From Polytrichum commune (lineage: Eukaryota > Streptophyta > Polytrichopsida > Polytrichales > Polytrichaceae): DNA of 64,000 bases. Position 1 is the first letter of the stretch; the number at the start of each line of letters is the position of its first letter. The stretch lies in assembly GCA_950295325.1 (NCBI GenBank), contig OX485807.1, positions 18,757,666 to 18,821,665 on the forward strand, in the 5' to 3' direction. Positions 1 through 55,106 of the stretch are shown here, in pieces. Both the position numbers and the translations under genes were made by a program. The notes under the pieces are model-generated. The model made no database searches, was not told the DNA's origin, and saw only the letters and a program-made list of their open reading frames with translations.

Positions 1-153
1 TCTCATCGATAGATCCAACAACATCCTTACAAACCCAAACGACATTGCATAAGAAATACACACCCAACAATCAATCAATAACAGGCCCACCGTCCCAACA
101 TGTTATTATCAACCTGATCATACACCACATTGCATATGCGGAGTCAGATAATA

Positions 154-2110
154 TCCGTGGCATGACCTAAACGGATACACCATTGAAAAAAGAGGCGACG
201 CACTTACCCCCCTACATACATACCTAGACCAAACAACATATGACATATGCCTACAAAACTTGGCCAATGGAAAAACCCCCGGACCCGATAAAATCCCTAA
301 CGCCATACTAAAAACTATGCCACCAAGATTCCACAAGTTTCTTGTACTATTCTTCACACATTGCTACAAACAAAAACAAATTCCCGAAGCTTGGAAAACA
401 AGCCTTACAATACTCCTATACAAAAAAGATAACCCCCATCACCTTACCAACCATAGACCCATTGCACTCGCTAACACAATTTATAAGTTATTTACGAGCA
501 TCCTCTCCTCATATGGAGAAAAATACCAAATTTTACATGACAGCCAAGAAGGCTTTCGAGCCGAAAGATACACCGCCCGGCAACTACAAACTCTAATTGC
601 AGCATTAGAAGATGCAAGAATTACTAACCAAGACATCTACATATTATACATTGACTTTAAAAACGCCTTCGGCTCTATCGATCACGCTAGACTCCTTACC
701 CTTATGAAAGATCTAGGCTATCCACAAGACGTTGTAACCCTAGTAGGCAATATCTACTCACAATCTACCACCACATTTACTGGAGAACATTTCGGTAAGA
801 CACAACCAATACCTATCCAAAGAGGAACCATACAAGGGGACACATTGAGCCCATATCTTTTTCTCATCTTCCTAGAACCATTTTTTAGATGGTTACAAAG
901 AGGGAACAATGGATATATTTTTAAAACCTCCGATATAATACTAAGCTTTGCAGCCTACGTAGACGACCTAGCAGCAATATCCAACAACGTGGCATCCATC
1001 AAACTCCAACTAAATAAATTAGACAAATATTGCGAATGGGTTGGAATGGACCTTGGCATTACAAAATGTGCAGTCACGGGCTGCCCTAACAAGTCCAAAC
1101 TCAATCCTCAAGCCTTTAAAACACATTTATAAAACACTAATATAAACTTTAGGAACCAACCCATTCCTATCCTAAGCCAACATGAATCATATGTCTACCT
1201 TGGAATAAATTTGGTTCCATCACTACAATGGAAAACTCAAACACACATAACAACAACCAAACTGATCAATCAATGCAAACTACTAATCGCATGCCCAGCC
1301 ACCATGAAACAAAAAATACAAATGATGGACACAGTCATAAGAGCCGGCATAGCCTATAGCTTCTACGCCGTCCCATACTCATTACCTGCCATTAAGAAAC
1401 TTGATAAAAGAATAATCGTCCTTCACAAGACAATATGTGGTCTTCCAAAATGTATGTCAAACGCAGTTGCACAACTACCCCAAGATATGTTTGGTACAGA
1501 AGTCTTCTCACTAAAAAATGTATACATTACATGCATAGGCGAACAACTCATTAATGCCCTCAATGACAAAGGGAGACTTGGTAGCATATACAAAGGACTC
1601 ACAAAACACATACTCACCAAACATGGCGGATCACTAAACATATCACGCATATCCCAACATGATTGTATAAGATCACCAATCACAAGAACATTATTCCTAC
1701 TCAAAACAACTAGTGGCACCCACTTAAGAAGTACACTCGCAAAATTCCCTCTCCTCCCCACACAACTCGAGACACAGTGGATGCGCCAAGCACAAAACAT
1801 ACCTACATTAACCCCCACAACTTCCCTAAAATACTTACATAAATTAATACTCCACAACATAACCGAACTTAGACACATAATACAACCTAATGGCACACAA
1901 CTAATGACCAACGATGAATTCAAAACCTACTACAACACACCCACTAAAACAATCAAAGCCGCCCTAGACCAAGCCCGAATACTCTTTTGCGAACCATCAT
2001 GCCACAACCAATGCCCAAATAATTGTCTAACGCATGCCCCACCAAACACCCTCAAAAGTGCATACAAAGTACAAAATCACCTCACAGCCGCAAGAACGAG
2101 CCAACATAAT
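154..2110 (+). pseudogene. Reverse transcriptase domain of the retroelement
   Basis: The open frame can be followed from an in-frame stop near 148. It reads through GKTPGPDKIP (about 269), the RPIALANTIYK block (about 452), GFRAE (about 554), the first catalytic aspartate in YIDFKNAFGS (about 650), RGTIQGDTLSPYLF (about 820) and the catalytic YVDD box at 956-967. All polymerase aspartates are present. A TAA at 1130-1132 interrupts the frame, which then continues in the same phase (YVYLGINL, about 1190) through the thumb and connector to about 2110. There a run of C-rich repeats (2117-2137) coincides with loss of phase. The function is target-primed reverse transcription of the element RNA. 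This copy cannot make a full-length product unless the stop is read through. Confidence 0.85.
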
Positions 2111-2189
2111 GAACGCCCCCCGCCCCCCGCCCCCCGCCCCCACCACCCGAATACCCAAAACCACCCCCTCACATCCAAAAAAACCACAT

Positions 2190-2758
2190 ACAATTTCCAA
2201 TACACTCCATAATTAATGACCGCCCCCACAACTACAAAGATAAAAACAAAATCACAAAAAAATATACATCCTTTCTATGCCAATGGACACTCCCAAACGA
2301 AACAATATATAACAAATGGCTCCCCCAAAAAGACTTATTCCCATGGGAAAACCAAAATACCATAAACCATAACATCTTACTACTAACACAATACTATACT
2401 CACAAACAAAACCAACATTTCATCAACATTTTAAATTTAAACTTCCATAAAGAACAAACAAGAGACACTAGACACATCCCCCCCCCCCTCACAAATCCTA
2501 CCACTATGTCACATCTATACTAACGAATGTAACCCAGATAACGATATCACATGCACACACGCCACCATCCAAAGTCAACATGGCACATCACATATATATG
2601 ATGATGATGGGCGCCACATAATTACCATCCCCGAACAAAGATTACAGTGGCTATGGGAACAGTACCAAAATGCATTACACCAACCGCAAAACTTAACACC
2701 CCCCATACAATCCTTTGAAAAAGAAGTTGCATGGTTATACCAACGTTACAAATGTAGA
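2190..2758 (+). pseudogene. Connector between RT and methyltransferase-like block
   Basis: After the frameshift around 2110-2180 a coding-like frame resumes and runs to a C run at about 2480, where phase changes again. It then continues into the frame that opens at 2759. The residues are hydrophilic and rich in N, Q, H and T, as in the flanking element protein. I recognise no domain here. It is listed because it joins the two recognisable halves of one original open reading frame. Confidence 0.55.
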
Positions 2759-4958
2759 ATGCCCAAAAATGACCCCCTCAAACTCTCTCAATACACACTC
2801 CCTAATGCCATCCTTGAACACATCATAGACTCATTCCAAATCACACACTCATACTTCTCATCACCGGTAACATGCCCTACTTCACTAAGACAATTCTCTT
2901 CCCCATTTACCAGAGACAAAGTATTCGGGTCAATAGGGACCGCATTCCAACACAAATGGATAGGGAATGGGTTTGCCCATCCACATTCAGAAAAAGACAC
3001 CCAACAAGCCCTACATTGGGCAAGACTTGCAGCCAAAAACAACCCAGACACAGTAACAATACTCATAACAACTGACCCTAACTGGTATCATAACCTCCAC
3101 CCGCATGAAGGCCCTTTCCTAGACTCACACGTCATCACACACTTCAAGGCAGATACTATTACATATGATGAACCCACAATACCACCAAAACTACGAATTG
3201 AACCCCGAATAGAAAGCCGAGACATCCAAGTACTGTACATACACCACAAAACCTCACCCCTCGGACCGCAAGGATATGCACATTGCATGAATATTATTGG
3301 CCACACCCTACAAATACCCACTATGTTTAACACCAACGTACCGCCAACACCCATGGACATATCAGTAAATTGCAATAAGAAATGGTCCCAACTCACATAC
3401 CCGCCTCCACCACCTACGACACAAACCAACAATATCCCATTAATCAACAATCAAAACATATGCCTACCCCTTAAATACCAACCACAATTTTGCTATTACA
3501 CGGATGGATCATTTATACCTCCCAAGGCCATAACCCAAGAACAGTGGAGGAGAGAAAAAGTAGGATATGGCATATATAACCCTTTCAAAAATCTCGAAAT
3601 AGCAGAACGACTACTAGGACTCCAAAATATCCTACGAGCAGAACTTATGGCTATACATCACACCCTCCGCCTCCTCATTACCATATATCAAAATGAACCA
3701 GCACACATTTTCACAGACTACATCAATGCTTTATACCTCCTAAACACACAAATAAAACACCCAACCTTACACAATAGTCACCCAGACAAAAAAAATACTT
3801 GAATCCATAATCAAAATGTTGCAATCCCGCACACAAATCACCACATTACATAAAGTCAAAGCCCACACAAACATAAGTGGCAATGAACAAGCAGATAAAC
3901 TAGCCAAAAGGGGTTGCTCATTAATACATAGAGACGCAATGGAAACATACGAACATGCCCACCCCACGCCATACTACCTCCAAAAGGATTGGTGGCACTC
4001 CATGCAAGACACACCAGATAAAGGTCCCATCCGCCACCTTGGCAAATACATCCTCAAACATGACAAAAAACACAATCTAACAATCATAGCAACCCAAACA
4101 CACCAATTACACAAATGGCTTGACAACAAAGACATTGACAAAGACCTATCAAATGATTTTTGGAACAACCCGGCCATCACAGATAAACAAAAAACATGCC
4201 TAGTAAAATTTAGAACCGGACAATATATGGGACATGCCCGGAAACAACTCTTCTTTGGAAGAAACGCATACCCATCTAACACATGCCCAATTTGTAACTC
4301 ACCAGACGCTGACACATGGCTACACGTACTCCTTAAATGCAAACAACAACATATCCATGCACTAATCACAAATAGACACAACAAAGCAGTATGGGAAATC
4401 CGAAAACTTCTTGTCTCAAATAAAGTAACCCGACACTATATACTTATGAATGCTGGCACATACAACGAATCCCCACAAGAAAACACAGTACCCAGTTGGT
4501 TACTCTCATGCACATGTATTACCCAGAAATGTCATTGCAATGCTAGGCTCAAACCCGACATATTATGTGTCATTGGACATCCATACAACTCCCCGCCACC
4601 ATAAACACCCACACCGGAAATCACCATACAATTCATCGAATTCACATACTGTAATGACAGGTTCTCCACTGAAACCATAAATCAAAAAATTACAAAATAT
4701 CAACCACTCATAAATAATATTATCGCAAAGGGGTGGAACGTAGCCCCACTTATTGTATTAGCATCTGGTGCTAGAGCCACAACTCACATCCCCTCAATGA
4801 ACGAACTTGAAACAAAGCTTAAACTCCCTACATCACAAATTAGGAACACATTCAAACAACTTAACATAATTGCCATACAATATGCACACTCAATATTAAT
4901 TCACAAAAGACGAATAGAAAATAGACAACCCATCACAGACCTACAAAATCATAATTAA
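2759..4958 (+). pseudogene. PCIF1-like methyltransferase block, RNase H, CCHC knuckle and PD-(D/E)XK endonuclease
   Basis: From 2759 one frame runs to 3802. Its residues 20-180 resemble the catalytic core of PCIF1-type N6-adenosine methyltransferases: FSSPVTC, then VFGSIGTAF, then GNGFAHPH where the family has the NPPF catalytic loop, then TILITTDPNW. Here the loop reads AHPH, so catalysis is doubtful. RNase H follows, with YTDGS (D at about 3503), RAEL (E at about 3641), FTDYINAL (D at about 3716) and, after a frameshift near 3770, KAHTNISGNEQAD (D at 3894); all four acidic residues are kept. Next come C-x2-C-x9-H-x4-C (4284-4340), RHN (about 4374) and KPD (4551-4559). A TAA at 4602 then interrupts the frame, which continues in phase with FIEFTYCND (E at 4638) and a KxxKY motif, ending at TAA 4956. 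The last part matches the restriction-like endonuclease fold of R2-type elements. Confidence 0.75.
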
Positions 4959-5589
4959 AAATTAGAGAGGGGTAGTGGTCAGACCACTAGTTATTAAAGT
5001 TACCACCTATAGCTCAAAAAGGCGGGGAGTAGCCGGCTGGTTGGCATAACTTTCTTGCCTATGATTAACTCACTTGCAGCACCAAGTCATAGTGTATTGC
5101 ATTAACACGCTTAGACGGATTCAACGCGAATTGAACCCGGACCGTATTAACATAACACGCACGTCCTCATCCAACCAACCTTGGAACCATGACTTGGCGA
5201 CCAACCATACAACCAACCACCACTTATACTCCAAACAAATACGCACGCTTCTAGTCTCAAACAAAGTAGCAAAACCCACAAAACACTAAATTAAAACCCA
5301 TGCACCCTACATACCCCCTTTCCCCCCCCCCCCCCCCGGTTTAACCGGCTAAAACATCTGTTACTAACATAGTGTCTACTCTCTGCAAAGGGTGAAGTAG
5401 TATTACACCCAACGCCGCTACCCTGGGGTACGGCCAAGGTTGTCCTACGAACAGACACTTTATTCACTCCGGTCCCTAATAGGGACTAGAGTTCTTCTTT
5501 TTCTTCTGGAAAGTTCAATCCTCGACAACTTATACTCCTAGATTTGCCCATGTCACTCTTCAATTTCTTGGTTGTGGATGTGACAACAC
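4959..5589 (+). other. 3' flank of the retroelement: hairpin, short repeat of element sequence, 16-C run
   Basis: Just past the last stop lies a perfect hairpin, TAGTGGTCAGACCACTA (4973-4989), a candidate 3' UTR structure. A 27-base stretch at about 5246-5272 matches element positions about 4400-4426 with five differences, so part of the element may be repeated here. A 16-base C run sits at 5322-5337. The true 3' end of the element and its target duplication could not be fixed. Confidence 0.4.
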
Positions 5590-18339: not shown

Positions 18340-19085
18340 TACCCATCTTCATACCCGCTCAAATCTACATACCCGTGAATTGACGAGGATAGCACTCCAC
18401 TGGCAGGGAACAAGAATAAATGTTCAAGGTCCATGGGTATTACCTGTCCTAGACCTGAGCATTCACAAGTGTTTTCTTCTTCTTCTAGCTCGGGCTTGGA
18501 ATCCCCATCAGATACCCGCCCAAATCTATATACCCGCGACTTCATAAGGATAGCACTCCGCTAGCAGGAAAACAACAAATGTTCAAGGTCCTTGGGTATA
18601 CCCATCCTATACCTGTGCATTCACAAGTGTCTTCTTCTTCTAGCTCGGGCTTGGGATCCCCATCTAGATACCCGCCCAAATCTACATACCCGTGACTTGA
18701 TAAGGATAGCACTCCAATGGTAGGAAACAATAAATGTTCAAGGTCCATGGGTATACCGATCCTATACCTGTGCATTCACAAGTGTCTTCTTCTTCTTCTA
18801 GCTCAGGCTTGGGATCCCCTTCTAGATACCCGCCCAAATCTACATACCCGTGACTTCATAAGGATGGCACTCCGCTGGCAGGAGAACAACAAACGTTCAA
18901 GGCCATTGGGTATACATGTCCTATACTTGTGCATTCACAAGTGTCTTCTTCTTCTAGCTTGGGCTTGGGATCCCCTCGTAGATACCCGTCCAAATCTACA
19001 TATCCATGACTTGATAAGGATATCACTCCGATGGCAAGGAAGCAACAAATGTTCAAGGTCATTGGGTATACCTGTCCTCACTCAA
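18340..19085 (+). repeat. Tandem array of a ~157-bp unit, about 4.6 copies
   Basis: Units start with AAATCTACATACCCGTGA-like sequence at 18361, 18522, 18678, 18836 and 18992, giving spacings of 161, 156, 158 and 156 bases. Each unit carries TCAAGGTCCATGGGTATACC, CATTCACAAGTGTCTTCTTC and GCTCGGGCTTGGGATCCCC. A unit close in length to one nucleosome repeat is typical of satellite DNA. The 141-residue open frame at 18717-19142 is just the repeat translated and is not called as a gene. Confidence 0.9.
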
Positions 19086-23055: not shown

Positions 23056-24408
23056 GGCCGATGTTGAGCCGGGTAACAGAGGCCGGGTAAGAAGGCGCCG
23101 GGTATGGGCCAGTTTAGCAGACTTGCCAGAGAAGGAGGGTAATGAGGGTGTTGCGAGGCTTTTAATTTGCTGTGCTTGTTCACTGCTGGAACTGCTGCTG
23201 CTGCTGCTGAGTCCGCATCGTCATCCATGGCGGCGAAGGCTCGCCCTCCCCGGCCTCCTATTCTCTTGAGCACTCGCTGTCTCTTGTTGCCTACGGGAAT
23301 CCTAGCTGGGCCGCTCTTCCGTGAAGAAAGGCCTGTGTTGTTGGATGTGGTTTCCTTCGTTTGTGTCTCTCTCCCCCCTCTCTCTCTCGCTTGCTTGCAT
23401 GGAGTATTTCACAGTCCTCTCCCTCGCTCACGTTACTTTACATTTGTGCTGTCTCTCTAGTGGTCCGACTACTCTTCTTGCTCCCGACTCACCGCATTTA
23501 TTACCATTGCGCGACATTCTCCTGGTCTCGATGACCCGCGAAATCAGCATCTGCGCCGCTAAGGTCCCCTAGCTAGCTGCGTCCTCTGCTTTTAATTTGG
23601 CTTCGAAGTCATCAGCACGTAGGAATGGTCACGTAGCTTGCTGAAGAAGAGCGGCCTTGGAAAGTTCGTTCCTCGGGGTTCCTCTCCTCGCTGTCTTTCT
23701 CGCTGCTGAACGGAGCGCAGGTTTCCACTCGGCCTTGTGAGGAGTTATGATTGAAATCAACTTCCTTATCATTCGCTGGTTCTTGTTCACCCTGCTTCTG
23801 TTTATGTTATTCTTCCAATAGTATTCTCCATGTCCTGGTCCTAATAGTCTTCGCCTTGGTAGAGGTTGAGGATTGCAGCGCCAGCTGTCTTAGAGGGGTT
23901 GGAGATGGTATAAGTCTATGTCGGAAGCAAGGCGCTGTTTAAGTGTCATATTTGCTCCTCGAGATTCGCAAGCCAGAACTGCGCTTGGAGCGTCCCGATG
24001 ACTGTGTTTCGGGAAATATCCCGTATTGAGTGAACTGCGTTGAAGCCATGCCCAACTGGAAGCTAGCGGCCACACACATGAAGCTTGTGTGCAATTGAGA
24101 CCTTAGCATTTGTTATTGTTGGACTTGTTTGAATCAAGCGGTGCCTGCACAATTTGGATGCTCAAAATCGAGCAGAGTTACTCCATTAGAAGAGATCTCC
24201 CCTATTTTGTTGATAATGCCCTTTTACTACACAGAAGAGCATCGGCATTCACAGCACGTATACCTAGGCATCTCTTTATTTTCTCTCCTTTCTGGTGTTT
24301 ATTGCGTACAAGAGTGATAATTTTCATTTTGGGAATGTCATTGCTCAATCTTGTCATTGGATACAAGAACGTGGCACGCGTGTTTTTTCCTTGAAAGGGA
24401 AACCCCGA
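23056..24408 (+). promoter_or_regulatory. Probable promoter and long 5' leader of the UPF0496 gene
   Basis: This region is GC-richer than its surroundings and strongly CT-rich (for example CTCTCTCCCCCCTCTCTCTC near 23370), as plant leaders often are. It holds upstream ATGs, one at about 23227 opening a frame to 23460, so upstream-ORF control is possible. A CTG/GCT repeat near 23190-23212 produces the poly-alanine or poly-leucine short frames seen on either strand; those are not called as genes. A leader intron may end near a TTGCGTACAAG or TTGGATACAAG acceptor (24310-24370), but this is uncertain. No TATA box is convincing. Confidence 0.5.
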
Positions 24409-25512
24409 ATGACTTGCGTTATGCCACCAAGACGAAGGAGCAAGGATCTCGCCTTCGCCATCGAGGAAGAATGCAAGAAAATCTACACTAGTGCCTCGTT
24501 CAACCTGTTTAAGGGAAAGGTGTGTGACTACGACTCCGGTACTGCCGACTCCACTTTCCTGAGTCCCGACCAAGAAGCAGTTGACAAGTTTTTTCAAAGA
24601 ACAAGAGGCGGCCCCCCGCGACCTGATGTTCGTAATGTCTTGGAGACATTTTTCTACAGCACTGTTAAAGCATGTGATCTGTACAGGATGTTGCTCAAAG
24701 GGATCCAAGTAGCGAAGCAGAACCAGACCAGCATCAACCAGGCCCTGCACCTGGTCCACATTGTGCAGCAGGATGGAAACAATATTCCTAGTCCCAGCCT
24801 TCACCACTCCGTACTTGAAGAACTGAAAACTTTTGCGGCATCGGAGAATCCGTTTCCTCAAGAGACACTCGATCAGTTCAATCTAGTGAAACAAGGATAC
24901 GGTCACCTTGAACAGGACCTGGGAGAGATGAAGAAGACACTAGATGCTGAGCTTCGAAAAGTCACAAAACGGACGAGGATCTTGCAATTCGTTATCGTGG
25001 CTGCTGGAAGTCCCGTCCTACTATGTTTGGCCCTTCCTGCAGCATTGGCAGGCCTAGTGGTGTCCACTCTTTCCAATTCAAATGTGATGGCTACAGTAAA
25101 GTCGTGGTGGTTTGCAGTGAAAGAGCAGTTTAATAACGATGTCCTAAAAGTTGAGTGTGCTCAGCTCGACGCGGCTGGTAAAGGAAATTATATTATCATC
25201 CAGGACCTGATGACTATTGAACGGCAGGTTACGCGCCTTCGAAACGATGTGGAGAACACCAAGCACCGGATATTGTATTTTGAGGAAAAAATGAAGGATT
25301 ACGGTTGCCTCTGCGTTGTAGTGCAACAGATTAGAATAAATACAGCGAGCGCTGAGCAACAGATGCAGGATTTTAGTGAGCAGGTTGTATTATGCTGCCG
25401 TACCCTCGAGAAGGCTCGCCAGCTTGTGTTCGAGAAGATTACTGGCCACCAGTGGGACAGAACTATGGACATAGATCCTGAGGATACCTTGTCCTCAGGT
25501 GATGACGAATAA
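24409..25512 (+). CDS. UPF0496 / At14a-like (DUF677) protein
   Basis: The frame gives 367 residues from the first in-frame ATG, or 363 from the ATG at 24421 just before PPRRRSKD. By family knowledge this is a plant-specific, membrane-associated helical protein; Arabidopsis At14a has been linked to plasma membrane and cell-wall/cytoskeleton contacts, and the exact role of most members is unknown. Seen (numbered from 24421): an N-terminal helical part with the family's LSPDQEAVDKFF motif (47-58), the DLYRMLLKGI helix (86-95), a heptad-like region (130-185), one hydrophobic segment at about 188-214, then DLMTIERQVTRLRNDV (262-277) and the closing ARQLVFEKI (332-340). The tail is acidic (SSGDDE). 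Length and layout fit the family, usually a single coding exon. It is intact, with better codon order than anything around it. The antisense frame at 24202-24861 is a shadow. Confidence 0.85.
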   Translation: MTCVMPPRRRSKDLAFAIEEECKKIYTSASFNLFKGKVCDYDSGTADSTFLSPDQEAVDKFFQRTRGGPPRPDVRNVLETFFYSTVKACDLYRMLLKGIQVAKQNQTSINQALHLVHIVQQDGNNIPSPSLHHSVLEELKTFAASENPFPQETLDQFNLVKQGYGHLEQDLGEMKKTLDAELRKVTKRTRILQFVIVAAGSPVLLCLALPAALAGLVVSTLSNSNVMATVKSWWFAVKEQFNNDVLKVECAQLDAAGKGNYIIIQDLMTIERQVTRLRNDVENTKHRILYFEEKMKDYGCLCVVVQQIRINTASAEQQMQDFSEQVVLCCRTLEKARQLVFEKITGHQWDRTMDIDPEDTLSSGDDE

Positions 25513-44099: not shown

Positions 44100-45850
44100 T
44101 CAAATGATCTTCAAATTTGACGAAAGAAACACCAGGAAACTATGGGACCATAATGTTAGGCATACTCCTTGGCAAGCTCTATAATGGCTTCGTTTTAGAA
44201 AACATGATTAATCTATGGGTGGGATTGAAAGGGATCAGAGCAGAAGACAAACATGTCTTTGGAAGGTACATCTACTTCAAACCACATTCTTACATTATGT
44301 ACTTTAATTCAACAAGGAGTGTTTGCAGGTCGATGTCTCTATTTCTATTTTGTTGATTTCATAAAAGCTTTGGGACACGGTTCCACGTGACAAACTTTGG
44401 GAATGCCTCCAATATTTAGGTGTACCACTACATTTACAACAAGTTGTAAAAGTGATGTATACCATAACCTATGCAAAAGTACGAATCAATGGATATACAC
44501 ATGGTGAAGTAATGTCCGACATCGGTGTTAAAAAAGGATGTCCCTTTCCCTCACATTTTTCAACTTATACATTGATGAACTTGAAACATATTTGGATGTG
44601 ATCAATGGGGATTCTCCATGTTTATTTAATAAGGTGGTTGTCGTTCTTCTCTAAAGCATAAACATGCTTACAAAGAATTTTGAACAAGCTATCTACGTTT
44701 TCCTAGCCTTGATGTCAATTTATCTAAGACCAAAATCATGATCTTTGGCCGCAACAAAAGAAAATTAAACCACGAGGCATTTTACCTAGGCAAAGACCAA
44801 ATGGAGATAATCCATGAATATAAATACATTAGGATTGATTTCTACTCACATGGCCACTTTGAACCCTCAAGTAAAAGGCAAAGAATTATAGGTTTGGAAG
44901 CCATGATGGGCACCTCAAGGAAAGAAGTAGTAGTTGGAGTTACATGTTGGAAACTCAAATCACATCTAGTATTCAAGGCTTTGGTGCTTCTAACCTTCAC
45001 ATATGGCACCAGAACTTGGGGAGGTGACTTGAACTCTTATTGGAAGGTTTTTGAGAAGGGCATGAAGATACATATGATGTCTCGTGTCAAAATGTGTTCT
45101 TTGAAAACGTATCATATTTTGTCGGCTGAGTTTGGAGAACTTCCCATGGAATTATATGCTCTTAAAACTAACTATGAATTTTCAACAATGGCTTGCCCAC
45201 CTACCCTCCTCCTAACTAGTTAGTCGAGCATTCTCAGTTTTCGTCACCTTGCTGAACAAGGGGCTACCACCTGGCATAAAACTTCAACCATGTGGAAAGC
45301 ATCTTGGGGTTTATCTCATCATGGGGACAACCCAACAACATCAAAAATCATATTTGACAATATCAAAGAGGTCTTTCTTGCTAAAGAGTGGGACTCTTTC
45401 CATCTCTTGAGGAAGAAACTAGATTACTCTTTCCATCTCAAAGCATTTTCTCAAATACGAATGTGAATTTTACTCGAAGGAACTATTGACACCACCACAA
45501 CACAAGATCATTGTTAATTACCGCACCTCGAATCAGAGACCTGCCCTCGAAACTAGACGGTGGTCAACAATCCCCATCTTTGGTGCCACTTTTGCGCTTG
45601 TAATGTAGTTTTAAATGAGGCACACTTTGTGTTGGAGTGCCCTTCATACAACCCCATCATAGGTAAGTTTCAATCATTGTTTGAGAAGGTAGGATTAAGG
45701 AGTCTCCAGATATATTTCAACTAGACCATCAAGTTGATATTAACCTCTAACTCATGGAGGCCACGGGATTCCATCACTCTAAGAAATTAGCCGGTTTGAC
45801 ACCACCCTAGCGTATTTTTAGTCCCACAAGCCTTTTGACTTCCCGAACTC
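44100..45850 (+). mobile_element. LINE fragment C: reverse transcriptase to C-terminal knuckle, degenerate
   Basis: Split frames give FVDFIKAL, then DTVPRDKLWECLQYLGVP (about 44375-44430) and VKVMYTITYAKVRINGYTHG, DIGVKKGCPF (about 44520-44550), all typical of LINE reverse transcriptase. The longest intact stretch is 44738-45223, with KTKIMIFGRNKRK just upstream and LVLLTFTYGTRTWGGDLNSY inside. Near 45590 the knuckle reads CHFCACNVVLNEAHFVLEC. Frameshifts and stops are numerous, and the YxDD box is not recognisable. Fragments A and B (19086-20845) belong to the same family. It differs from the element at 1-4990 in domain order and codon use. Confidence 0.82.
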
Positions 45851-51320: not shown

Positions 51321-51946
51321 CAACTGCCAATTTGAAAGCAGGGTGAAATGCTCACCCCTCTGAGTTGGGCCCCTTCCCACTATTGTTCCAAGGTGAAAAC
51401 AATAGCCACTATATTTATAATCCAAAAGTTTATAAAGTTTTCATTACAAAGATGGATGGATCCTGAAATTAGCATCAAAGACCTTGAATTCATTCACAAG
51501 CTACCGCTTGAAACAAATTAACTATTTACCTTATAATTTTTATCGGTGGCATTTGTCTTTTCACATACTAAACCTAGCCATGTATTGGCACGGTACTATT
51601 CACTTGTCATAATTCACAATAATATTTTTTGTTCGTGGACACAGTTCATTGTTGTTTTTTACCGCTTACAATGAATATAAGCCTCCCCCATTTTCAATTC
51701 TAGTGTGTTTTTTGGCGAGTATTTAAGTACTCTTTGGTTTGGGCAAGCAAACGGGGGACTTGGTGCTAGCCCCACCAAAACCCAACTTCCCTAGTTGAAA
51801 ACTCCTATGTTATGGGGATCATGTTTTTAGTAGACCCCTTTACTTTGGTAACAATGCTAGGGGACCATCTCAAAGAGGCAGGTGTCTAGCCTTGACCCCA
51901 CTTTGCATACTAATCTAAGGTTTTGATGTTGGATGAGTGAGGGGTT
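51321..51946. other. Intergenic, nothing recognised
   Basis: No gene or repeat is supported. Confidence 0.4.
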
Positions 51947-52401
51947 GATCACACTAGCTAGTTCTGACATCATCCGTCGGCATCTCCGGCTGTAATAATG
52001 TGAAAAGTGGTGGGCCAACATCTATTTCTCAACATATTTCCTAACAATTTCACGGCTAGAACCAGATGGAAAGTTTGGTGTGATCGGGGCATGAGTGAAG
52101 GGTTGATCACACCAACCGCTTTTGGCACCATCCATCAACATCTCCGGCTGTAATAGTGTGAGAAGTGGTGGGCCAACATCTATTTCTCAACATTATCCCC
52201 AACAATTTCACGACTGGAACCAGATGGAAAGTTTGGTGTGATCAGGGAATGAGTGAGGGGTTGATCATACCGGCCGCTTCTGGCACCCTCCATCGGCATC
52301 TTCGGCTAGAATAGTGTGAAAAGTGGTTGGCCAACATTTATTTCTCAACATAATCCCCAACAATTTCACGGCTAGAACCGGAGGGAAAGCTTGGTGTGAT
52401 C
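51947..52401 (+). repeat. Three tandem 139-bp units of the GATCACACCAA inverted-repeat element
   Basis: Units are 51947-52085, 52105-52243 and 52263-52401. All are exactly 139 bases, separated by 19-base spacers of the form GGGGCATGAGTGAAGGGTT, so the period is 158. Each unit starts GATCACAC(C/T) and ends TTGGTGTGATC, so every unit is itself bounded by inverted repeats. The inverse orientation occurs at 34698-34981. Confidence 0.92.
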
Positions 52402-52557
52402 AAGGCCTGAGAGGTACACTCAAACCTCATATACAATAACCCCCCCCCCCCCTTTCGCCCCCTGCTCTCATTGGTTGTTGTTGTTGTTGTTGTTTTCTTT
52501 CTACAAACATCAAGTTAGCAAGACGGACACTGCAACAAGGAGGGAGAGAGAGAGAAG

Positions 52558-52929: not shown

Positions 52930-54020
52930 TGATTCTGGAAACCGGGAATTGTCTAATTTGGGGGGCCATCAAATTATCCTTCTGCTGGGGACTGAGTCAG
53001 AGGCTCAGGACCTCATTTACGTGGCAGTCGGTGCGATTGGGGACCTCAATTGGGGACCTGGGATTGTAGGCTTGTACAAAGGCTTCGCTGTGTGTGTGTC
53101 TTCTTGTGTGCGTCGTTCTTCCTTTTTCCCTTTACACAAAGCTTGCTCGCCACTCCGCCTCCGACGTCGTCCTCTCCATTTCTGCGTTCCCACATCCACG
53201 CTTCCTTCTCCGGGACCTCGTACAGGGGAGGGAAAAACCGACTGGAAGAATTTGAGCCAGAAATCGTGAATTTCCGTCCACATTTGAGCACGGTTGGTGT
53301 GTCCGTCTCTGTGTCTCTGTTTTTTCTAGCGCTCCCTCTGTGCAGAGTTTTGGTGTTGAGGAGTTTGAGGACTCTCTCTCTCGCTCTCTTCTCTTCTTCT
53401 CTTCTCTTTGCGGTGGTGTGTCTTCCCTCGGGTTCGGTAGAGGAGGAATTTCACCAGCGGTGAGCGAGATAAATTCTTTTATCTTTCTGAAGTTCGCTTT
53501 CTTTCAGAACTGCCGTCTCTGGCCATCTGCGGGTGTCTTCTCTCTTTTGCAAGATTTATTTGACCGGGGGTCATCAAGTCTCTTTGATAGAATCCGTCGA
53601 GATTGGCTTGCGACTTCCAAGTCTGCGGTTCGTCTTTCCTCTCCTTCGTCGTCTCGTCCATTCGTACATCACTGAAACAACAGAGTCTGGAATTCTCGAA
53701 GATTGTTTTTTTTTAGATTTGGCCTCTAGAGACCACTACTAAGGAGACCATTATCATCAGTTTGAGTGAATTTTTTTCAGATTGAGCACAAGTTGTATTC
53801 TCTCTTGGTCAACAAAGGAAGAATCTCCTCTTCACGAAGGACATTTCAATGCGTCTGCTCTGGTTCGGAGAATTAGTTCTTTTTGCGAGCTGTAACAAAT
53901 AACTGGAACTCCAAGCGAAGCATGAGCGATATTACATCTTTGGAAGCAGATTTTGTATTGAAGCGTGAGATTCGAAGACATCAAGTTCATATTCAAGATT
54001 AGAGGAAGAAGCCTTGAGGT
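52930..54020 (+). promoter_or_regulatory. Probable promoter and 5' leader of the BPS1-like gene
   Basis: After a 15-base G run (52914-52928) the sequence becomes GC- and CT-rich (CTCTCTCTCTCGCTCTCTTC near 53372-53391), like the leader at 23.1 kb. A candidate leader intron runs from GT at 53460 (context CAGCG|GTGAGC) to the AG ending at 53780 (TTTTTTTCAG|ATTG), 321 bases. Upstream open frames exist, so translational control is possible. No convincing TATA box was found. A TGA at 54015-54017 closes the coding frame just upstream of the ATG. Confidence 0.5.
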
Positions 54021-55106
54021 ATGACACACCAACATGTGACCTCCTCGAAGTTGTTCGCTACGCTCGGTGCCGTCCTCCCTCACTTCACTCTTCGCCATGT
54101 CGCACATAGCGGCTCGCTGAAGCGCCATCCTGTGTTACAGGAATTTGAGAGCAGACTGACTGAGAAGCTGGAGGCTCTGAAATCAGCAGGAGATGAACTT
54201 GGATTTCTCAGTATAGATTGGCTTCTGCAGGCCATGACCGTCGTCCTCGCCACGCATTCCAATGTTGAAGAACTTATTCCAAATCTGGAGTTTCCGCCCT
54301 CCGACAGGGATGACAAGTGGGTGGATGAGTATCTAGATGACAGTGCAAAGCTTCTGGATGTGTGCAATGTTTTGAGAGAAGGAATCTCGGAGGTAGACCA
54401 TTACAAGATGCATGTACAAATCGCTCTCCGAAACTTGGACCTAAAGGATTGCAAACTGTACCGCGCAAGGAGTGCTTTACATGATTGTTTAGGAGGAATC
54501 AAGAAGAAAGATACAGAATACAGACAAGGGCATCCGAAGTCGAAGCTTGAGAGCTGCAGTTCCATGCTACGGGTTATGGGAGAGAAGCTTGTAAATCCCA
54601 AGGGAGTTGAGGCTACCAAGGGGAACGGGTTTCTCAATGCTATCTACGGTGCCAAAGTCACCACCATCTTTCTCTGTGGTTTACTTGTTACTGCTCTTGC
54701 ATGTAAACCGAAGCGGCCGTTGGTGAATCTGCATGTGGCCAGTCACTATCTATGGTCTCCCTCCCTTGTCAGCCTGCAGGTTGCTGTGAAGGAAGAGACG
54801 GATAAGCGCAAGAACAAAGGTTCCATTGCACTTCTTCGGGAGCTTGACAATGTTGATTTGCTCGTGCGGAGGTTGCATGAATTGATAGACCGGAAGTTGA
54901 ATGAGAAGTGTAGCTTGCCTCTAGATAAAGTTGAAGGGGAGGAAATCAAGCAATTGGCGGAAGAACTTAGCTCGGAGTCTGAAAATCTCGGCAGAGGGTT
55001 GGCACCTCTTGAGGAATGCGTGAATGAGCTCTTCAGAATGCTCATAGGTAGCCGACTTGCCCTCTTGGATCGCCTAAGTGCCTCCCAAAAATCCATAGTC
55101 CAGTAG
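54021..55106 (+). CDS. BYPASS1/ROH1-like (DUF793) protein
   Basis: The frame gives 361 residues from the first ATG after an in-frame TGA. In Arabidopsis, BPS1 limits a root-derived mobile signal that arrests shoot growth, and the related ROH1 binds an exocyst subunit; the function here is inferred from family only. Seen: an N-terminal part of uncertain reality (1-39), the conserved LQEFESRLTEKL start (39-50), SIDWLLQAM (64-72), the family signature KWVDEYLDDSAKLLDVCNVL (99-118), a basic region (143-173), one hydrophobic segment TTIFLCGLLVTALA (214-227), and a helical C-terminal half ending in LFRMLIGSRLALLDRL (337-352). Length and order fit the family, usually single-exon. One caution: a GAG|GTATGA donor overlaps the ATG and a TGTTACAG acceptor precedes residue 40, so an alternative model would skip residues 1-40. 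Downstream and antisense frames are shadows. Confidence 0.87.
   Translation: MTHQHVTSSKLFATLGAVLPHFTLRHVAHSGSLKRHPVLQEFESRLTEKLEALKSAGDELGFLSIDWLLQAMTVVLATHSNVEELIPNLEFPPSDRDDKWVDEYLDDSAKLLDVCNVLREGISEVDHYKMHVQIALRNLDLKDCKLYRARSALHDCLGGIKKKDTEYRQGHPKSKLESCSSMLRVMGEKLVNPKGVEATKGNGFLNAIYGAKVTTIFLCGLLVTALACKPKRPLVNLHVASHYLWSPSLVSLQVAVKEETDKRKNKGSIALLRELDNVDLLVRRLHELIDRKLNEKCSLPLDKVEGEEIKQLAEELSSESENLGRGLAPLEECVNELFRMLIGSRLALLDRLSASQKSIVQ

Follow-up and report, generated by a model that had tools for sequence, protein, structure and literature searches.

Does the retrotransposon copy that opens this 64,000-nucleotide stretch of Polytrichum commune DNA (the window) carry a methyltransferase-family domain inside its polyprotein and, if so, is that domain still an enzyme? 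A sequence-only reading had proposed a PCIF1-like N6-adenosine methyltransferase block embedded between the reverse transcriptase (RT) and RNase H of the element, with a catalytic loop that might be inactive in this copy or in the whole family. The features of the window copy are collected in Table 1. The window holds the part of the element that extends from the RT to the 3' end; the coding homology runs on upstream of the window into the endonuclease region (flanking locus L046), with a 2A-like motif also lying upstream, and the similarity to other copies stops at about 5504-5511. The copy carries a stop at 1130-1132, a frame change at ~2113-2441, a second frame change at 3756-3802 and a further stop at 4602-4604. 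On the + strand, the frame 2441-3799 contains FSSPVTC, QFSSPFTRDKVFGSIGTAF, GNGFAHPH and DPNW in that order.

Table 1. Features of the retrotransposon copy, in window coordinates, with the basis for each.
Feature	Position	Strand	Basis
Broken non-LTR retrotransposon copy	1..5507	+	coding homology to other copies; 3' end placed within a few bases
Reverse transcriptase domain (PF00078)	422..1078	+	Pfam, E = 3.8e-25
PCIF1/CAPAM-like methyltransferase domain	2666..3070	+	PF12237 match
FSSPVTC, counterpart of PCIF1 FASPLNC	2855..2875	+	PDB alignment register, copy alignment
FGSIG, counterpart of PCIF1 FGSRG	2924..2938	+	PDB alignment register, copy alignment
GNGFAHPH, position of the PCIF1 catalytic loop NPPF	2963..2986	+	alignment register
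DPNW	3074-3085	+	translated frame 2441-3799
RNase H domain, split here by a frame change	3488..3917	+	Pfam, two halves, each below cut-off
CCHC zinc-knuckle-like motif CPICNSPDADTWLHVLLKC (C-x2-C-x9-H-x4-C)	4283..4339	+	sequence reading
Candidate restriction-like endonuclease ((K/R)PDI ... FIEFT ... KxxKY)	4551..4955	+	motif reading; stop 4602-4604 inside
3' end: hairpin-like inverted repeat, then TTC-rich tail	5467..5507	+	read by eye

The element shows a strong strand asymmetry (GC skew of -0.36 and -0.46, AT skew of +0.26 and +0.34 over window positions 1-4000), with the consequence that stop codons are rare from composition alone and long open frames arise easily. At the 3' end (5467-5507) the hairpin-like repeat is conserved in L047-L053 and is followed by TTC repeats, with the loop and part of the stem differing among eight aligned copies; in another subfamily of the element the 3' end consists of CTAT repeats. 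Elsewhere in the window, an open frame at 44684-45220 has, by eye, the look of a decayed RT from a different non-LTR element and gives nothing in Pfam at E <= 0.01, two tandem arrays at 18342-19078 and 51933-52402 have repeat units of about 156 and 158 bases, and gene-like frames for a DUF677 protein and a ROH1/BPS1-like protein lie at 24268-25509 and 54018-55103.

The identity of the inserted domain was addressed with profile searches. Pfam model PF12237 matches residues 76-209 of frame 2441-3799 (E = 4.7e-10; a score of 39.8 bits, above the curated threshold of 31.1), and it also matches each of 24 aligned copies scanned alone (24/24) and all four long copies scanned (4/4, above cut-off). 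The match begins upstream of the ATG at 2759 from which the sequence-only reading had started the domain, so its extent is 2666-3070. The Pfam name of this family refers to a WW domain; the model itself describes a CAPAM-like methyltransferase, according to the available part of PMC7641849. No WW-domain family was detected in Pfam scans of five window frames and four long copies. Searched against the PDB, the window domain sequence alone returned PCIF1 as its top match at a non-significant E = 0.24, and the 24-copy profile, searched against all PDB sequences, returned 6irx (E = 3.8e-4) and 6irv (E = 0.0068), both PCIF1, and no further sequence up to E = 10. The PDB profile result does not depend on which sequences PF12237 was built from. 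We take 6irx to be zebrafish PCIF1 and 6irv to be human PCIF1. A figure legend in the accessible text of PMC10544176 gives the two species the other way round.

The order and register of FSSPVTC, FGS and GNGFAHPH in the window copy agree with the PCIF1 alignments. F-S-S-P-x-T-C is present in 24/24 aligned copies, with FxSPxxC and FG invariant and the S and G that follow each varying in a single copy; FSSPxTC and FGS are conserved across subfamilies A to C and mostly retained in a divergent subfamily, whose copies differ at F-S-S-P-x-T-C. In the segment that corresponds to the PCIF1 active-site loop, through to FG, 11 of 25 columns are invariant, compared with 57 of 267 over the whole 24-copy alignment, and an upstream helix of the domain (LYQRY) equals the loops in invariance. 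The helical domain of PCIF1, described as the m7G cap binder in the accessible text of PMC10544176, was matched by the 24-copy profile over one helix only (0.7 and -0.4 bits). An AF2 model of the window domain, computed from the single sequence, has a mean pLDDT of 35.1. As judged from these profiles and alignments, homology of the domain to PCIF1 and its retention by the element are well supported. Chance or compositional similarity is rejected on the strength of the profile statistics together with the purifying selection described below.

In PCIF1 the catalytic loop N553-P-P-F556 is required for activity, and APPA and SPPG mutants serve as inactive forms (PMC10544176, available part). NPPF is kept in none of the 72 distinct copies of the element with a readable loop, and all 72 have His at the position of the catalytic Asn. 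This set combines 66 distinct copies from a systematic reading with six divergent copies read separately: 76 of 87 loci gave a row (the other 11 being stretches beside the domain), from which eight misread divergent rows and one deletion copy were dropped, leaving 67 rows for the 66 copies. One divergent locus (L061, the same as L079) has an unreadable loop and lies outside the 72. In subfamilies A to C nearly every copy reads A-H-P-H/P/N followed by a variable residue, and the residue at the F556 position is S, T, N or K in the 24-copy alignment. The divergent subfamily reads G-(Y/F/L)-A-H, followed where readable by I-T or M-M, with the Pro gone; all six divergent copies have A-H in the loop. 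As A-H occurs in both the main and the divergent subfamilies, the replacement must have happened before the subfamilies seen diverged, and it has been maintained ever since. The change of the loop is family-wide and no defect peculiar to the window copy.

Since both N553 and F556 are replaced, the PCIF1 mutational data indicate that N6-methyltransferase activity has most likely been lost. The sequence-only reading is thus borne out in its homology, register, position and suspicion of a family-wide loop change; a working RNA methyltransferase finds no support, given the fate of the two residues that matter in PCIF1 (PMC10544176, as far as the available text goes). Neither of the outcomes that it had named as refuting occurred: the profile search does lead to a methyltransferase, PCIF1, and the FxSPxxC and FG positions hold across the aligned copies. 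A related change is reported in the accessible sections of PMC9479742 for Drosophila PCIF1, in which the Phe of NPPF is replaced by His and flies are without m6Am. According to the same sections, honey bees also are without m6Am and show a Phe to Tyr change that the authors deem an unlikely cause; the absence of m6Am despite so mild a change implies that motif and activity are not always coupled.

Selection on the domain was assessed from dN/dS within subfamily A, using Nei-Gojobori counts for 20 copies (19 with the domain aligned, window copy excluded) and intervals from a codon bootstrap; the pairs are non-independent and post-insertion mutations inflate all values, and only comparisons between regions are used. 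The domain (0.111, interval 0.082-0.140) and RNase H (0.112, 0.079-0.151) gave near-equal values. Linkers upstream and downstream of the domain gave 0.204 (0.121-0.310) and 0.255 (0.176-0.345), respectively, the RT thumb region 0.177, the region after RNase H 0.109 and the C-terminal domain 0.148. Of the stretches measured, the seven loop codons (GxGYAHP) have the lowest point estimate (0.042, 0.003-0.106), although this interval and that of the whole domain overlap. No clear reduction relative to the whole domain is seen in the FSSP-FGS block (0.097, 0.040-0.188), the stretch after the loop is higher than the domain (0.150), and the stretch just before the domain stands at 0.098. Comparisons between subfamilies, in which dS approaches saturation, give 0.08-0.17 for the domain. 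By these substitution ratios, the domain is under purifying selection to the same degree as RNase H.

The wider family was examined in one genome of 408 Mb in 64 contigs. Four matches to the LEAFY family (PF01698) in this genome, together with the DUF677 and ROH1/BPS1 frames of the window, point to a land plant. Searches with the window domain gave at least 145 matches (from 2036 first-look candidates), PF12237 gave at least 150 scored matches, all above cut-off (from 697 candidates), and a further search gave at least 150 (from 1336 first-look candidates); these numbers are lower bounds for overlapping sets for which no union was computed. Three long open copies, L041 (2912 aa), L042 (2890 aa) and L043 (2169 aa), contain the RT, the PCIF1-like domain and RNase H by Pfam, and the order APE endonuclease, RT, PCIF1-like domain, RNase H is found over cut-off in L041 and L043; there was no Pfam match to APE in L042 and no endonuclease match in the L045 frame. 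The domain thus lies between RT and RNase H in the long copies, as in the window, and RNase H, split in the window copy, is unbroken in L041, L042, L043 and L045 (Pfam E = 3.5e-12 to 8.3e-15). The full order in the long open copies is 2A-like motif, APE, RT, PCIF1-like domain, RNase H, CCHC motif and a possible restriction-like endonuclease. The 2A-like motifs upstream of the endonuclease region read DIETNPGP, DIKPNPGP and DIHPNPGP (L041, L042; L046:4914), which suggests possible co-translational splitting of the polyprotein; the long, A/C-rich frame ahead of the motif could be coding or non-coding. Copies of the divergent subfamily are decayed, with domains about 35-48% identical to that of L043 (38-57% for the RT in L083); their domain lies between RT and RNase H in L083 and between the RT-thumb region and RNase H in L082 and L084.

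Elements that bear the domain have moved recently. Over 2 kb, the identity among L042 and three copies from other chromosomes is 99.4-99.8%, which marks these copies as recent, and one copy is flanked by a 12-bp repeat, TTTTGTGTGTGG, a target-site duplication by eye, with three extra bases at the 5' junction. That copy, probably 5'-truncated, has its start some 170 bases upstream of the 2A-like motif. The near-identical copies and the target-site duplication together indicate recent target-primed reverse transcription by domain-bearing elements.

Among known groups, Dualen/RandI appears closest, on the basis of the combination of APE, RNase H and a candidate C-terminal restriction-like endonuclease, and membership is putative. 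Dualen carries a cysteine protease; none was detected in the Pfam scan of four long copies. The RT of one copy, L043, ranks R2 (best E = 4e-22) ahead of LINE-1 (best E = 2e-10) by E-value order. Dualen/RandI elements are described as having both an APE and a restriction-like endonuclease (available parts of PMC4640811 and PMC3636483), and APE, RT, RNase H and CCHC are common to that group and the present element, which may share the C-terminal endonuclease as well; unlike that group, this element has a PCIF1-like domain between RT and RNase H. Its host is a land plant; green algae are the source of the RandI families in the table of PMC3747384, as far as its accessible part goes. The C-terminal endonuclease is itself a candidate recognized from motifs: CCHC, (K/R)PDI, FIEFT and KxxKY are kept in 4/4 aligned copies (in L044, PN replaces PD and the remainder is missing), and the four CCHC residues are the same in 5/5 aligned copies. 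Single-copy and four-copy searches of this region against the PDB gave no relevant match, and an AF2 model of it from a single sequence has a pLDDT of 35.5.

Possible sources of the domain were sought within and outside the genome. A 69-residue stretch of PCIF1 chain 6irx gave 139 genomic matches from as many first-look candidates (best E = 0.0019), none of which aligns past query residue 57; NPPF occupies residues 66-69, so the matches miss it. The 22 matches that were read (20 together with L054 and L055) are the retroelement domain or its divergent subfamily, with no host PCIF1 exon among these 22 of 139, although introns or gaps could hide one. Scans of viral contigs and of bacterial and archaeal genome contigs, with two short peptide patterns per scan, gave no relatives of the domain.

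Taking these results together, the domain has most likely become fixed as a pseudo-methyltransferase that serves in binding or as a structural part, and is not an active N6-adenosine methylase. We propose that a Dualen/RandI-like lineage of a land plant took up the PCIF1/CAPAM methyltransferase core, which became established between RT and RNase H; that NPPF became G(Y/F/L)AH, mostly followed by P, ahead of the split of the subfamilies seen; and that selection went on acting on the new loop and on the counterpart of the active-site loop even as catalytic activity, most likely, disappeared. Within the polyprotein, the domain would now bind RNA or nucleotides without catalysing a reaction. In target-primed reverse transcription it might keep the element's own RNA, perhaps by its capped 5' end, close to RT and RNase H, in the way that METTL14 serves METTL3. 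To this course of capture, loss of catalysis and retention as a binding module we give an even chance. Its more specific form, a non-catalytic reader of the element's own capped or cap-adjacent methylated RNA that selects full-length template, we regard as unlikely: failure to detect the cap-binding helical domain of PCIF1 speaks against a cap-binding role, and cap reading is one of several possibilities. The conserved counterparts of FSSPxTC and FGS would suit a retained pocket, yet the upstream helix is equally invariant.

That last point is shared by the view that the domain is purely a structural spacer or a protein-protein docking module, making no contact with nucleic acid or cofactor. 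Conservation alone is silent on what is bound, the LYQRY helix is as invariant as the loops and dN/dS shows no clear drop in the FSSP-FGS block relative to the whole domain, all of which such a spacer would accommodate; the density of invariant columns in the active-site-loop counterpart up to FG (11/25 against 57/267) and the keeping of the changed catalytic loop itself count the other way, and we consider it rather unlikely. A conserved changed loop is also compatible with an altered but active enzyme, that is, a methyltransferase whose loop has been remade with His in place of Asn and which acts on another substrate, for example the 5' end of the element RNA, its cDNA or a protein. Such an enzyme would account for a loop whose dN/dS is the lowest of the stretches measured, albeit with an interval overlapping the domain's, and for the conservation of FSSPxTC and FGS in subfamilies A to C and largely in the divergent one; replacement of both PCIF1-essential residues, variation at the F556 position (S, T, N, K) and loss of the Pro as well in divergent copies readable past the loop make it quite improbable. 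Convergent or low-complexity resemblance, produced without homology by the strongly A/C-rich coding strand, would draw on the ease of long open frames under the GC skew of the first 4 kb and on the E = 0.24 of the window sequence alone. It is already disfavoured by calibrated profile scores that lead to PCIF1 in Pfam and to PCIF1 alone in the PDB, by the agreement of motif order and register and by purifying selection on the domain, and a search with the C-terminal part of the polyprotein brings up nothing of the kind; we hold it to be extremely unlikely.

A PCIF1-type domain that sits between RT and RNase H, is multiplied across one land-plant genome and has a remodelled, conserved loop is a concrete protein in which binding of RNA, cap or SAM may be sought. 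If the enzyme is inactive, the element offers a natural case of a pseudo-methyltransferase maintained by selection. How LINEs choose full-length copies of their own RNA is, to our knowledge, largely open, and a reader of capped or cap-adjacent methylated RNA, if real, would give a LINE a built-in means of selecting a full-length template. Among the papers listed in the literature searched (the best 20 where more matched), outside which lay Repbase, preprints and most subscription journals, we found no description of a PCIF1-type domain in a retroelement; as far as that literature shows, a CAPAM-type domain would be new to retroelements.

Compared with PCIF1/CAPAM itself (6irv, 6irx), the element domain shares the sequence family, the F-x-SP-x-x-C loop, FGSxG and the motif order; it differs in being without NPPF in any readable copy, in that no WW domain was found and the helical cap-binding domain was not detected, and in its location inside a retrotransposon polyprotein. 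METTL14, a degenerate partner serving METTL3, likewise belongs to an N6-adenosine methyltransferase family and has an altered catalytic motif, but it is a cellular gene and not a mobile-element domain. The same likeness and the same difference hold for Drosophila PCIF1, as described in the available text of PMC9479742. Among mobile elements, DNA methylases are known from retroelements, DAM in DIRS and DCM in Ty3/Gypsy and DIRS, and transposons with DNA methylases are given as absent from land plants such as tracheophytes, both according to the accessible part of PMC6338049. These DAM and DCM retrotransposons resemble the present element in being retroelements with a methyltransferase-fold domain, known here by sequence family, and differ in methylase family and element class as far as that part extends; beside them, a PCIF1-type domain would bring to three the kinds of methyltransferase that retroelements have acquired, here in a land plant. 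The orchid Ty3/Gypsy elements that carry an AlkB m6A demethylase active in vitro (PMC9289625, available sections) provide a further plant parallel. They too are plant retroelements with an acquired domain related to RNA N6-methyladenosine, and by the same sections they differ in being LTR elements in which a separate ORF encodes an eraser, in contrast to the writer-like domain found here within the polyprotein.
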